Positions 56,998-61,549 of a DNA stretch of 64,000 bases are shown here, piece by piece (positions within the stretch are counted from its first letter, which is position 1; every line of letters begins with the position of its first letter). The DNA lies in the NCBI GenBank assembly GCA_028687375.1, contig JAQUAG010000003.1, positions 91,122 to 155,121 of the forward strand, in the 5' to 3' direction. The notes beneath the pieces were generated by a model, which was given only the letters and a program-made list of their open reading frames with translations, made no database searches and was not told the DNA's origin. A program made the translations under genes and the position numbers. This DNA is from Arcobacteraceae bacterium (GTDB lineage Bacteria; Campylobacterota; Campylobacteria; Campylobacterales; Arcobacteraceae).

Positions 56998-57570
56998 TTA
57001 ACTTATTATTGCAAAGTTCTTTTGTAGTCTTACCTCTATCCCTTTAGCAACTAAAGTGCTTTTAAACCCCTCCCCGATTTGAGAAACAATATATTGGTTG
57101 ACACTATACTTTAAAAAAATCTTTGTCAGTTCAATAGTAGGCTTTAAATCTGTACCATAAAGAGGGTTATCTAAAAAGAGTTTCTCTTTGAGTTCCCCCT
57201 TTGAATTAAAAGTAAAAATACAAATATATCTATTTTTTGAATTGAGGTTCTCAAAATGATTTGTATCATTTGAGCACAATCCAACGATAAGGTCTCCCCT
57301 TTGAGATTCAAGTGCTAACTTATTTCCCATCAGCAGTCCCAAAGCTACTTTTTTCCTTGCACTTTTTATTATCCTTGCAAAAGTTGGTCTTGAAATCTCC
57401 ATCTTTTGCGCAGCATCCTCTTGATAGAGTTCTAGTAAATCCATAAGATAGAGTGCTTCTATCTCTTCACTCAAAAGTGTTATCGTTTCGTTTGTCCCAT
57501 TTTCATTTGGGGAAAAAAGTGTACATTTTGGTCTAAAACTCAGTTTTCTTTCATTTTTTGTTCGTGGCAT
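56998..57570 (-). CDS. DUF134 HTH regulator with C-terminal NifX-like domain
   Basis: 190 residues. The N-terminal DUF134 domain (LSEEIEALYLMDLLELYQED, then HTH AAQKMEISRPTFARIIKSAR) is DNA-binding. The C-terminal ~80 residues end VSQIGEGFKSTLVAKGIEV, the NifX/NifB-type dinitrogenase Fe-Mo cofactor fold. It is divergent from the cytochrome bd operon, whose promoter carries two operator-like repeats. It most likely controls that operon in response to a metal or cluster state; ligand and direction are unknown. Confidence 0.78.
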   Translation of the reverse strand: MPRTKNERKLSFRPKCTLFSPNENGTNETITLLSEEIEALYLMDLLELYQEDAAQKMEISRPTFARIIKSARKKVALGLLMGNKLALESQRGDLIVGLCSNDTNHFENLNSKNRYICIFTFNSKGELKEKLFLDNPLYGTDLKPTIELTKIFLKYSVNQYIVSQIGEGFKSTLVAKGIEVRLQKNFAIIS

Positions 57571-57626
57571 ATTTTTTACTTTTAAAATTATTTTTTGAAT
57601 TTTAGCTAATTTTTATTAAAAAATAC

Positions 57627-57670
57627 TTGACATATGTTCATAATAGTTTTACAATTCGGTCATATGTTCA
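57627..57670 (+). promoter_or_regulatory. cyd operon promoter with paired operator-like repeats
   Basis: TTGACA (57627-57632), 17-bp spacer and TACAAT (57650-57655) form a near-consensus sigma70 promoter. The decamer CATATGTTCA lies at 57631-57640, overlapping the -35, and at 57661-57670, around +1. The two copies are exactly 30 bp apart, about three helical turns, as for a protein binding the same face. The divergent DUF134 protein is the nearest candidate. Confidence 0.7.
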
Positions 57671-57683
57671 AAAAGGAAAAGTT

Positions 57684-57905
57684 ATGAATATCATAAAAAA
57701 GACTTATTTATTTTATTTTGAAGGTTTTCAAAATATGACTATTGGAAAAACACTTTGGAAGATAATAGCACTTAAACTTCTAGTGATTTTGGTGTTTTTA
57801 AAACTTTTTGTCCATGATAAAACTTTCAAAAGTGAATATGTATCAAGCGAAGCAAAATCAGATTTTGTTTCAGCAAATCTTATCAAAGGAAAATCAAATG
57901 ATTGA
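57684..57905 (+). CDS. DUF4492 small membrane protein of cytochrome bd operon
   Basis: 73 residues from the ATG at 57684, with AAGGAAAA upstream; a TTG at 57627 sits in the promoter and is rejected. It shows FYFEGFQNMTIGKTLWKIIA then LKLLVILVFLKLF (one TM), the DUF4492 pattern known next to cydA in Campylobacterota and Bacteroidetes. Role unknown; assembly or a minor subunit is possible. The stop overlaps cydA by 8 nt. Confidence 0.72.
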   Translation: MNIIKKTYLFYFEGFQNMTIGKTLWKIIALKLLVILVFLKLFVHDKTFKSEYVSSEAKSDFVSANLIKGKSND

Positions 57906-59427
57906 AGAAACACTTGTTGATTGGAGTAGAGCTCAATTTGCCCTCACTGCAATCTACCACTTTTTATTTGTCCCACTCACTTTGGGGCTTGGGTTTATTG
58001 TTGCTATTATGAAGAGTATCTATGTCAAAACTGGCGATGTGATGTGGAAAAAAATCACTAAATTCTGGATGACCCTTTTTGCTATCAATTTTGCGATTGG
58101 TGTAGCTACTGGGATTATTATGGAGTTTGAGTTTGGTACAAACTGGGCAAATTATAGTTGGTTTGTTGGGGATATTTTCGGTGCTCCTCTAGCAATTGAG
58201 GGGATATTGGCATTTTTCTTAGAGAGTACCTTTTTTGCTGTGATGTTTTTTGGTTGGGATAAAGTAACAAAAGGGTTTCATCTCCTCTCCACTTGGCTTG
58301 TGGCGATTGGGTCAAACCTTTCAGCTCTTTGGATTTTGGTCGCAAATGGTTGGATGCAATACCCTGTTGGGATGGAGTTTAATCCTGATACTGTACGAAA
58401 TGAGATGGCAAATTTTTGGGAAGTTATCCTTTCCCCTGTAGCAATAGCCAAATTTTTACACACTATTGGAAGTGGTTATGTTATCGCATCGCTTTTTGTG
58501 ATAGGGGTGAGTAGTTGGTTTTTACTCAAAAAGAAAGATGTTGTTTTTGCTCGAAAATCGATTATTATCGGGGCTACTTTTGGACTTATCACTTCCCTTT
58601 TTCTTATCCTCAGTGGTGATGAATCAGCTCATCAAGTTGCCCTCAAACAACCTGTAAAATTAGCTGCTATGGAGGGGTTGTATGAGGGTAAAACTGAAGC
58701 TGGAATTGTAGGGATTGGTATCTTAAATCAAAAGAAAACTTTAGATAACAATGAAGAGCCTTATCTTTTTGAACTTGAAGCCCCTTATGCCCTTTCACTT
58801 CTTGGATATCACGATATCCACGCTTTTGTTCCTGGTCTTCAAGATTTAGTCTATGGAAATAAAGAACAAAATATTATGGGTGGAGATGAAAAAATAGCAA
58901 AAGGGAAAATCGCCCTAGAAGCCTTTAGTGCTTATAAAGAAGCTAAAAAAGTTGGTGACACAGAGGCTGCGGAGTTAGCAAGAACAACTCTTCAAGCTAA
59001 TATGGCTTATTTTGGGTATGGGTATTTAGAAAAACCACAAGATATCGTTCCCCCTATTGGTTTAACATTTTATAGTTTCCATATTATGGTTCTTTTAGGG
59101 AGTTGGTTTACATTTCTTTTTGCTATTGTCCTTTATCTTGCAACAAAAAAAGATATCACAAACTATCCACTCATTCTCAAAGCTTCCCTCTGGTCAATTC
59201 CATTTGGCTATATCGCAGCTGAGGCTGGCTGGATAGTAGCTGAAGTTGGGAGACAACCTTGGGCGATACAAGATTTGATGCCTGTGGGAGTAGCAGTTAC
59301 TCATATCTCAAGCACCAATGTGATGATAAGTTTTATCTTGTTTGCAGTTCTTTTTACTGCACTTTTAATTGCCGAGATAAAAATTATGACAAAACAAATA
59401 AGCCTTGGCTTTGACGGAGGTCACTAA
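57898..59427 (+). CDS. cydA: Cytochrome bd ubiquinol oxidase subunit I
   Basis: 509 residues from the ATG at 57898 (AAAGGAAAA upstream); the upstream in-frame starts lie in DUF4492. It shows SRAQFALTAIYHFLFVPLT with the heme-ligand His at ~21, MEFEFGTNWANYSWFVGDIF, and GRQPWAIQDLMPVGVAVT. With CydB it oxidises quinol and reduces O2 with high affinity, without pumping protons. Confidence 0.95.
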   Translation: MIEETLVDWSRAQFALTAIYHFLFVPLTLGLGFIVAIMKSIYVKTGDVMWKKITKFWMTLFAINFAIGVATGIIMEFEFGTNWANYSWFVGDIFGAPLAIEGILAFFLESTFFAVMFFGWDKVTKGFHLLSTWLVAIGSNLSALWILVANGWMQYPVGMEFNPDTVRNEMANFWEVILSPVAIAKFLHTIGSGYVIASLFVIGVSSWFLLKKKDVVFARKSIIIGATFGLITSLFLILSGDESAHQVALKQPVKLAAMEGLYEGKTEAGIVGIGILNQKKTLDNNEEPYLFELEAPYALSLLGYHDIHAFVPGLQDLVYGNKEQNIMGGDEKIAKGKIALEAFSAYKEAKKVGDTEAAELARTTLQANMAYFGYGYLEKPQDIVPPIGLTFYSFHIMVLLGSWFTFLFAIVLYLATKKDITNYPLILKASLWSIPFGYIAAEAGWIVAEVGRQPWAIQDLMPVGVAVTHISSTNVMISFILFAVLFTALLIAEIKIMTKQISLGFDGGH

Positions 59428-60557
59428 TGTTTGAAAATTTAACACTTTTACAATTACAACAATACTGGTGGATTATCATCTCGTTGCTAGGTGGACTTTT
59501 TGTATTTATGATGTTTGTACAAGGGGGACAAACTTTGTTTCGCTCCCTAGCACGAGATGAGATTGAAAAAACGATGCTTATTAATAGCATAGGGAGAAAA
59601 TGGGAGCTAGGATTTACTACATTAGTGCTTTTTGGTGGAGCTTTATTTGCAGCTTTCCCCCTTTTTTATAGTACAAGTTTTGGTGGAGCTTATTGGGTTT
59701 GGATGGCTATTTTGTTTTGTTTTATCATCCAAGCGGTGAGTTATGAGTATAGAACCAAACCAAACAATTTTTTAGGGCAAAAAACTTATGAGCTTTTTTT
59801 AGAAATCAATGGAAATATAGGGGTCTTTTTACTAGGGGTTGCAATAAGTACTTTTTTTAGTGGAAGTGAGTTTTTTGTGGATGAGAGAAATTTCTCTTAT
59901 TGGAAAAATGAGCTTCGAGGTTTAGAAGCACTTATGAATCCTTACAACCTTTTTCTTGGGTTTTCGTTAGTATTTTTATCAAAAATCTTAGGGGCGATGT
60001 ATTTTATCAACAATATCGACCATAAACAGATACAAAAAAGAGCGGTGAGTTCTATCAAAATCAATATGATTTTTTTCTTAGTTTTTTTCTTTGGATTTTT
60101 AGGATGGATTTTCACAAAAGAGGGATTTGAGGTTGATACAATGGGTGTAGTTTCGATTGTACCTTTAAAATATATCCAAAATTTTATCGATATGCCAATT
60201 GTTTTTGGGATGTTTATCTTAGGTGTTGCGATGGTTGTGGTAGCAGTCTATAGAACAATTGAGCAAGAAAAAACTTGTTGTATCAAAACAGGTGGTGTTG
60301 GTGTTGTTATCACTGTAATGGCACTTCTTTTATCAGTAGGATTAAATAATACACCATTTTATCCCTCTACTTATGATTTACAAAGTAGTTTAACGATTAT
60401 GAATAGTTCAGGAAGTCACTACACTTTAGTTACTATGAGTTATGCATCACTCCTTGTACCGTTTGTGTTAGGGTATATTTTTTATGCTTGGAGAGCGATG
60501 GATATAGTGAAAATTACAAAAGAGGAGATGAGTGACACTGATGCTCATCATTACTAG
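59427..60557 (+). CDS. cydB: Cytochrome bd ubiquinol oxidase subunit II
   Basis: 376 residues with about eight TM helices and CydB blocks (WWIIISLLGGLFVFMMFVQG, GQTLFRSLARDEIEK, WIFTKEG). It pairs with CydA; ATG overlaps the cydA stop by 1 nt (TAATG). GGAGGT is upstream. Confidence 0.93.
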   Translation: MFENLTLLQLQQYWWIIISLLGGLFVFMMFVQGGQTLFRSLARDEIEKTMLINSIGRKWELGFTTLVLFGGALFAAFPLFYSTSFGGAYWVWMAILFCFIIQAVSYEYRTKPNNFLGQKTYELFLEINGNIGVFLLGVAISTFFSGSEFFVDERNFSYWKNELRGLEALMNPYNLFLGFSLVFLSKILGAMYFINNIDHKQIQKRAVSSIKINMIFFLVFFFGFLGWIFTKEGFEVDTMGVVSIVPLKYIQNFIDMPIVFGMFILGVAMVVVAVYRTIEQEKTCCIKTGGVGVVITVMALLLSVGLNNTPFYPSTYDLQSSLTIMNSSGSHYTLVTMSYASLLVPFVLGYIFYAWRAMDIVKITKEEMSDTDAHHY

Positions 60558-60570
60558 AAAGGAGAATTAT

Positions 60571-60675
60571 ATGGAATATCTTGAATCATTAGCATGGCTT
60601 GCATTATGGCCAATAGTTTTATATCTTGGGTATAGATTTTCAATTAAAAATAGTCTTAAAGGAGTAGAAAAATGA
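60571..60675 (+). CDS. 34-residue single-helix protein, candidate small oxidase subunit (CydX-like)
   Basis: MEYLESLAWLALWPIVLYL opens the protein, so nearly the whole first half is one TM helix; a short basic tail follows (YRFSIKNSLKGVEK). AGAAAGGAG is ideally placed 6 nt upstream, and the stop TGA overlaps the next ATG. Many bd oxidases need a CydX-type one-helix subunit, encoded just after cydB. Size, topology and place fit; sequence likeness to CydX is weak. Confidence 0.72.
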   Translation: MEYLESLAWLALWPIVLYLGYRFSIKNSLKGVEK

Positions 60676-61142
60676 TAGCGGTACCACTTAAAATGGAGAA
60701 AGTTAATTCTGCTGTTTCCCCACTTTTTGGGAAAGCAAAATATTTTGCGATAGCTAATAAAGGGGAGATTCAGATTTTAAAAAATGTGTGTCACGGTGGC
60801 AATCAAGTTGCGATGTGGCTTCATTCTTTGGGGGTGAAAAAACTCCTTGTTTCTCATATGGGTGCAAATCCATTTGAAAAACTCATCCAATTTGGGATGG
60901 AAAGTTACTTTGTTGGAGAAGAAAGAATTTTATTTAAAGAGGCTCTTTTAGCGTATGCCGATGGAGATTTAATGAGGGTAGATAAAGGAAATTTTGATAC
61001 GATTTTCCCTCCACATTCCCATTCACATGGGGAGAAGCACCATCATCATAGCCACCATAAAGGAAACGATACAACGGATACTTTTTTGATAAGAGGGATA
61101 CACAATCCTCCCCTTATGAACACTTACCATTTTACAAAATAA
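60672..61142 (+). CDS. NifX/NifB-type cofactor-binding domain protein with His-rich tail
   Basis: 156 residues. A dinitrogenase iron-molybdenum cofactor domain (MIAVPLKMEKVNSAVSPLFG, LHSLGVKKLLVSHMGANPFE) spans ~1-110. The tail has a His cluster (HSHSHGEKHHHHSHHKG). No nif genes are nearby. The protein shares its domain with the DUF134 regulator's C terminus. A metal or Fe-S carrier for the oxidase or its regulator is plausible; inference only. Confidence 0.75.
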   Translation: MIAVPLKMEKVNSAVSPLFGKAKYFAIANKGEIQILKNVCHGGNQVAMWLHSLGVKKLLVSHMGANPFEKLIQFGMESYFVGEERILFKEALLAYADGDLMRVDKGNFDTIFPPHSHSHGEKHHHHSHHKGNDTTDTFLIRGIHNPPLMNTYHFTK

Positions 61143-61153
61143 AGGAAAACCAT

Positions 61154-61549
61154 ATGAAACAAATGCTTTTAAAAGAAAAATATCCAATCTATACGATTGA
61201 AATCGACAAAAATGAAACAACTATGAGTTCAGTCGATGCCATCATAGAGTTTTTAAAGAATAAAATTGATACCCACCCGATAGCAAAATTTATCGCTATT
61301 TTTGACCATATGAGCCATACAAAATCGTTTGAGGATGGTGTGATTGTTGATGGTTTACTTGATGCAAAAAATCTTATTTTTTGTTTTGGAAAAGAGATTC
61401 CAACAAGTAAAATATTAGCAGTTCGACCACGAAGTATTGGAGTTTGTGAATTTGAAAATCACTTTGAACTCTCTTTACTTGAAGTTCCAAATGAAAATCT
61501 CCATGCACTTACGCAATCTTGGATAAAAGAGATAATAAATAAAAAATAA
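61154..61549 (+). CDS. Conserved small protein of the cyd operon (possibly DUF6858)
   Basis: 131 residues, soluble, with no signal or helix: FIAIFDHMSHTKSFEDGVIV, DAKNLIFCFGKEIP, RPRSIGVCEFENHFELSLLE. The label DUF6858 is from memory and uncertain. Two Cys and several His might bind a ligand. It lies 11 nt after the NifX-like gene and ends the operon. Confidence 0.6.
   Translation: MKQMLLKEKYPIYTIEIDKNETTMSSVDAIIEFLKNKIDTHPIAKFIAIFDHMSHTKSFEDGVIVDGLLDAKNLIFCFGKEIPTSKILAVRPRSIGVCEFENHFELSLLEVPNENLHALTQSWIKEIINKK

Follow-up and report, generated by a model that had tools for sequence, protein, structure and literature searches.

A DUF134 regulator with a NifX-type domain and its predicted operator at a cytochrome bd operon of an Arcobacteraceae bacterium

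Within a 64,000-nucleotide stretch of DNA from an Arcobacteraceae bacterium (assembly GCA_028687375.1, contig JAQUAG010000003.1, forward-strand positions 91,122 to 155,121; hereafter the window), a gene coding for a 190 amino acid DUF134 (UPF0251-type helix-turn-helix) protein with a C-terminal NifX/NifB-type domain (56998–57570, minus strand) is divergent from an operon which comprises, in order, the genes for DUF4492, CydA, CydB, a CydY-type protein, a His-rich PF02579 protein and DUF6858. Open reading frame (ORF) listing and translation located all seven genes where the original prediction had placed them. We consider it probable that the DUF134 protein acts locally, repressing its own gene and essentially a single target, the divergent promoter, and that its NifX-type domain reads the status of a metal or an iron-sulfur (Fe-S) cluster. 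In a group of free-living Campylobacterota, regulators of this kind appear to act on one adjoining operon, which in the window is that of the oxidase and of a second protein with the NifX-type fold. The most useful outcome of the analysis is a palindrome, which we put forward as the predicted operator of DUF134.

The element is common to the intergenic regions of loci that carry the long form of the regulator, as the window does. The two window copies, TTGACATATGTTCA (57627–57640) and CGGTCATATGTTCA (57657–57670), lie 30 bp apart and are both related to a palindrome with the consensus TGAACATATGTTCA, from which they differ by two and three mismatches, respectively. The same intergenic region contains a predicted sigma-70 promoter for the cyd operon, TTGACA-17-TACAAT (57627–57655, plus strand), called purely by its match to the consensus (11/12). 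Copy 1 overlaps the -35 box, and copy 2 sits just 3' of the -10 box, between it and the DUF4492 gene. Among 46 non-redundant long-regulator loci (clusters at 90% identity with enough flanking sequence), and with sites of at most four mismatches and an intact CATATG accepted, 40 carry the element, 29 of them twice, irrespective of whether the genes downstream code for DUF4492-CydAB, a NifX-like protein or SLAC1. The 14-mer form TTGACATATGTYCA occurs at the regulator promoter in 10 of the 13 genomes with a long regulator and in 0/11 genomes without one; a genome thus has essentially a single copy, which accompanies the DUF134 gene. The only extra copy, in genome G165, was considered as a second operator and discarded as a chance occurrence, since it sits within the coding sequence of a transporter. 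Regulon size was judged from this stricter 14-mer because a genome-wide scan allowing up to two mismatches was dominated in several genomes by AT-rich chance matches, the control counts being similar there. Few genomes matched a two-copy pattern with a fixed TATG half-site, as the second copy varies. That the regulator acts on the oxidase operon had been the contention of the original prediction, and it gains support from the conserved predicted operator in the cyd promoter, which would tie the two together.

With up to two mismatches permitted, 20 of 29 further loci, most of them labelled as belonging to other phyla, have a site about 130 bp or less ahead of the DUF134 match, against a background of 0.0036 such sites per kb in mononucleotide-shuffled sequence. 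The records concerned are labelled Acidobacteria, Aminicenantes, Verrucomicrobia, Bacteroidales, Latescibacterota, Spirochaetia, Deltaproteobacteria, Solirubrobacteraceae and Planctomycetota, among others, these labels being taken from the titles of metagenome-assembled genomes, which can be wrong. A palindrome closely resembling TGAACATATGTTCA was seen upstream of DUF134 genes across phyla at loci L185–L218 and L006–L017, and short DUF134 paralogues in some Campylobacterota (e.g. G123:C1:185049) have the variant TGCACATATGTGCA.

Pfam analysis of the regulator revealed that it is a member of DUF134/UPF0251 (PF02001; E=9e-17, 61.9 bits against a gathering score of 27), from which it differs by the fused C-terminal NifX-type domain. 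In a 13-member alignment of its orthologues, DUF134 was matched by all 13 and PF02579 by nine, the latter at a lax threshold (best E=6.8e-8). Profile-profile comparison aligned the C-terminus with the NifX-like proteins of the operon (E=8e-6, probability 84%). The AlphaFold2 model (mean pLDDT 85, pTM 0.54) consists of an N-terminal helical and a C-terminal alpha/beta domain, and its top matches in the Protein Data Bank (PDB) are PH0822, TA1041, NifX of NifEN-NifX, TM1816, ORP and NafY. These three lines of evidence bear out the earlier claim that the regulator and an operon product share the NifX-type fold. A locus with 83% identity to the window regulator (L140) stands in a record labelled Desulfosporosinus, which is most likely mislabelled or a mixed bin.

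In the literature searched (titles and abstracts), we found no functional study, operator or target for DUF134/UPF0251/COG1342; the family, though widespread, has no function assigned to it there. Its function becomes directly testable through a predicted operator that is conserved in several phyla, one clear target and a sensor with a cofactor-binding fold.

The most constant partner of the regulator is a NifX-like protein and not the oxidase. Among the 46 loci, the neighbours include a NifX-like gene at 33, cydA (within 5 kb) at 18, DUF6858 at 16 and a SLAC1-family gene at eight, with at least one of the four at 39. A NifX-like gene is present at 16 of the 18 cydA loci, and regulator, cydA, NifX-like and DUF6858 genes stand together at nine of the 46. 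The co-occurrence anticipated in the original prediction therefore recurs as a pairing, whereas the seven-gene set is not fixed. Gene order is window-like in the Arcobacter relatives; in Sulfurospirillum, NifX precedes DUF4492-cydAB and SLAC1-DUF6858 lies on the opposite side, and at locus L069 all genes are on the same strand. The locus is also present in a cultured environmental strain, Sulfurospirillum diekertiae JPD-1 (L142). At three Sulfurospirillum-like loci (L063, L066 and L068), the block of regulator, DUF6858 and SLAC1 genes lies directly 3' of what appear to be the last nap (periplasmic nitrate reductase) genes.

Outside the Campylobacterota, some DUF134 genes adjoin genes for NifX-like proteins and Mrp/MinD-ferredoxin ATPases, an apparent Fe-S carrier context which is reminiscent of the ORP/MrpORP system of Desulfovibrio (PMC6345978, PMC3897727). 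The two have in common the NifX-type cluster-binding fold and, in these other phyla, the proximity to such ATPases. In contrast to ORP/MrpORP, the window operon has no Mrp ATPase, its target is cytochrome bd, and the predicted control is by DUF134 at a sigma-70-type rather than a sigma-54 promoter.

The NifX-like product of the operon (60672–61142, plus strand) is a Nitro_FeMo-Co (NifX/ORP-type) protein with a His-rich C-terminal tail (PF02579; E=4e-12, 46.6 bits against a cut-off of 26.3). Its family profile matches TM1290, MTH1175 and ORP, and it showed no match up to E=1 to NifX proper (TIGR02663); the NifX that this genome does encode is a separate protein. The NifX-like proteins of the various loci can be divided into several types, and their tails are often rich in His or Cys. 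No link between NifX-like proteins and cytochrome bd control was found in the literature searched.

In the mechanism that we infer, the helix-turn-helix domain would bind the two TGAACATATGTTCA copies flanking the promoter core and so switch off DUF4492-cydAB-cydY-nifX(His)-DUF6858, as well as its own gene. The C-terminal NifX-type domain would sense the state of a metal or metal-sulfur cluster, and the loss (or binding) of this ligand would cause the regulator to leave the DNA. The derepressed operon would then provide a copper-independent quinol oxidase which removes oxygen, while its His-rich NifX-fold product may bind or buffer the same ligand and thereby tune or reset the switch. Of this picture, the genes and their domains, the conservation and uniqueness of the predicted operator and the pairing with NifX-like genes can be read directly from the sequences. 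Were this true, it would constitute a new route for setting bacterial oxygen consumption, possibly tied to the protection of nitrogenase or other oxygen-sensitive clusters. A broader version, which we regard as speculative and rather unlikely, is that DUF134-NifX proteins are widespread transcription factors whose NifX-type domain directly senses a metal-sulfur cofactor of the Fe-S, Mo-Fe or Mo-Cu type, that in the Campylobacterota they couple the state of this cofactor to a change from copper-dependent to copper-free respiration, and that the NifX-fold product is the ligand carrier.

Several observations weigh against the proposed cluster-responsive repressor of the oxidase operon. The window regulator itself gave no match to PF02579 in Pfam up to E=10, and cydA adjoins the regulator at only the 18 loci mentioned above. 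A clear-cut site is absent at L171 and L174 and merely weak at L182 and L204, all deeper-branching, cydA-linked long-regulator loci. Repression as such is deduced purely from the geometry of the sites. In the wider set of 46 genomes, which was drawn by regulator similarity and includes incomplete metagenome bins, nifH is present in 19 and was not found in 27; a nitrogenase cofactor is thus unlikely as the general signal.

Divergent gene arrangements are common for activators, and sites over a -35 box can activate; the layout here, with a site overlapping the -35, would therefore also suit a regulator which activates the operon. We judge this improbable, the -35 and -10 boxes being near consensus and the position of copy 2, past the -10 but ahead of the DUF4492 gene, having the geometry of a repressor site. 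The palindrome might instead belong to another factor, either LexA (SOS box, GAAC-N4-GTTC) or an FNR-like protein, the DUF134 neighbour then being incidental. Its core, GAACATATGTTC, resembles the Gram-positive SOS box, and the string turns up in the SOS literature. However, a LexA DNA-binding domain was detected in 0/13 genomes, which leaves a GAAC-N4-GTTC site without the obvious other protein to bind it. Moreover, the TTGACATATGTYCA form is essentially confined to one occurrence per genome, next to DUF134, and the site accompanies DUF134 across phyla, so that we give this possibility very little credence.

Two further alternatives concern the signal. According to one, the regulator is a nitrogenase-specific switch which senses a cofactor precursor (NifB-co or FeMo-co), the operon giving respiratory protection. 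A precedent is Azotobacter vinelandii, in which cydAB is under the local regulator CydR and the oxidase is used in respiratory protection of nitrogenase (PMC4465626); the likeness lies in a local regulator adjoining cydAB, but CydR is of the FNR type, whereas here a DUF134 protein with a NifX-type domain and a different operator are found. The original prediction had noted that nitrogenase genes were not in view, which holds within the window but not for the genome, where nifHDK, nifE, nifN and nifX are present elsewhere (nifE and nifX with scores slightly below the curated cut-offs). This genome also encodes, divergently from nifE, a paralogue of the operon NifX-like protein (E=1e-12 in a single comparison). 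In a 200-genome sample of the phylum, nifH was found in 22, the long regulator in 13 and both in 11, an association with Fisher p values of 1.3e-10 for genomes, 7e-4 for genera and 2e-4 without families f2 and f3, in tests which take no account of phylogeny. Yet the NifX-like product of the operon lies outside NifX proper, with no match to TIGR02663, and the 27 wider-set genomes without nifH include the cultured Malaciobacter halophilus (locus L155, genome G214), which has the regulator-DUF4492-cydAB-NifX locus. The nifH link is an enrichment and not a rule; a strict linkage of the regulator to nitrogenase was ruled out, and we hold a nitrogenase-specific switch to be unlikely, while respiratory protection of nitrogenase is a plausible use of the oxidase in diazotrophic members. 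Near the nif genes (G000:C46:1013-3726) are two adjacent multi-helix membrane proteins of 464 and 440 amino acids, the second of which showed no NCBIfam match. The other alternative is a response to copper/thiomolybdate or sulfide stress. In sulfidic habitats NifX/ORP-type domains would bind Mo-Cu-S or related clusters, and starvation or inhibition of the copper oxidase would induce the bd oxidase, which needs no copper. ORP, which is among the fold matches, binds a Mo-Cu cluster according to literature cited in PMC6345978. Also in keeping with this are a haem-copper oxidase family member in 13/13 long-regulator genomes, the His-rich tails of the NifX-like partner, SLAC1 anion-channel genes at eight loci and a flavin oxidoreductase beside DUF6858 at L182; we nevertheless think it quite doubtful.

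Whatever its signal, the proposed repressor would control a bd-type oxidase that is auxiliary, since all 13 genomes also code for the haem-copper enzyme. The operon begins with a 73 amino acid DUF4492 small membrane protein (57684–57905, plus strand; PF14899, E=1e-22), followed on the same strand by cydA (57898–59427), which specifies subunit I of cytochrome bd (509 amino acids; PF01654, Cyt_bd_oxida_I, E=4e-163), and cydB (59427–60557), specifying subunit II (PF02322, Cyt_bd_oxida_II, E=8e-70; TIGR00203 above cut-off). CydA residues 6–504 align with residues 4–500 of the E. coli-type PRK15097, that is nearly over the full length, and the protein is of the long Q-loop type. Its canonical haem ligands H21, H188 and M397 and the GRQPW motif at 451 are at the positions expected from E. 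coli numbering.

Behind cydB lies a 34 amino acid ORF (60571–60675, plus strand). It is not regarded as noise because cydB has a comparable short ORF behind it in each of the related operons that were examined, in most cases with a ribosome-binding site. CydY has been described as a single-helix protein with a conserved Trp encoded in long Q-loop operons of epsilon- and deltaproteobacteria (Allen et al. 2014, PMC4325964), and the window ORF fits a CydY in its position, its length and a Trp at the start of a helix that was judged from sequence. CydX was rejected as an identity for it, as no Pfam family was matched up to E=1, a search that short proteins can escape, and CydY fits. The window operon thus has cydAB and a small subunit in common with the published systems, to which it adds DUF4492, the NifX-like protein, DUF6858 and a dedicated regulator.

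The last gene (61154–61549, plus strand) was described in the original prediction as coding for a small unknown protein; it is present, but the product can be assigned to DUF6858 (PF21651, E=2e-52). Its model (pLDDT 95) has 1q9u as the best PDB match (E=1.7e-3), a weak resemblance to DUF302. A second DUF6858 gene is found in the source genome away from cyd (G000:C34:63172-63558), and in a Sulfuricurvum bin (L182:10087-11664) DUF6858 adjoins a flavin-dependent oxidoreductase which by eye looks like a sulfide:quinone reductase.

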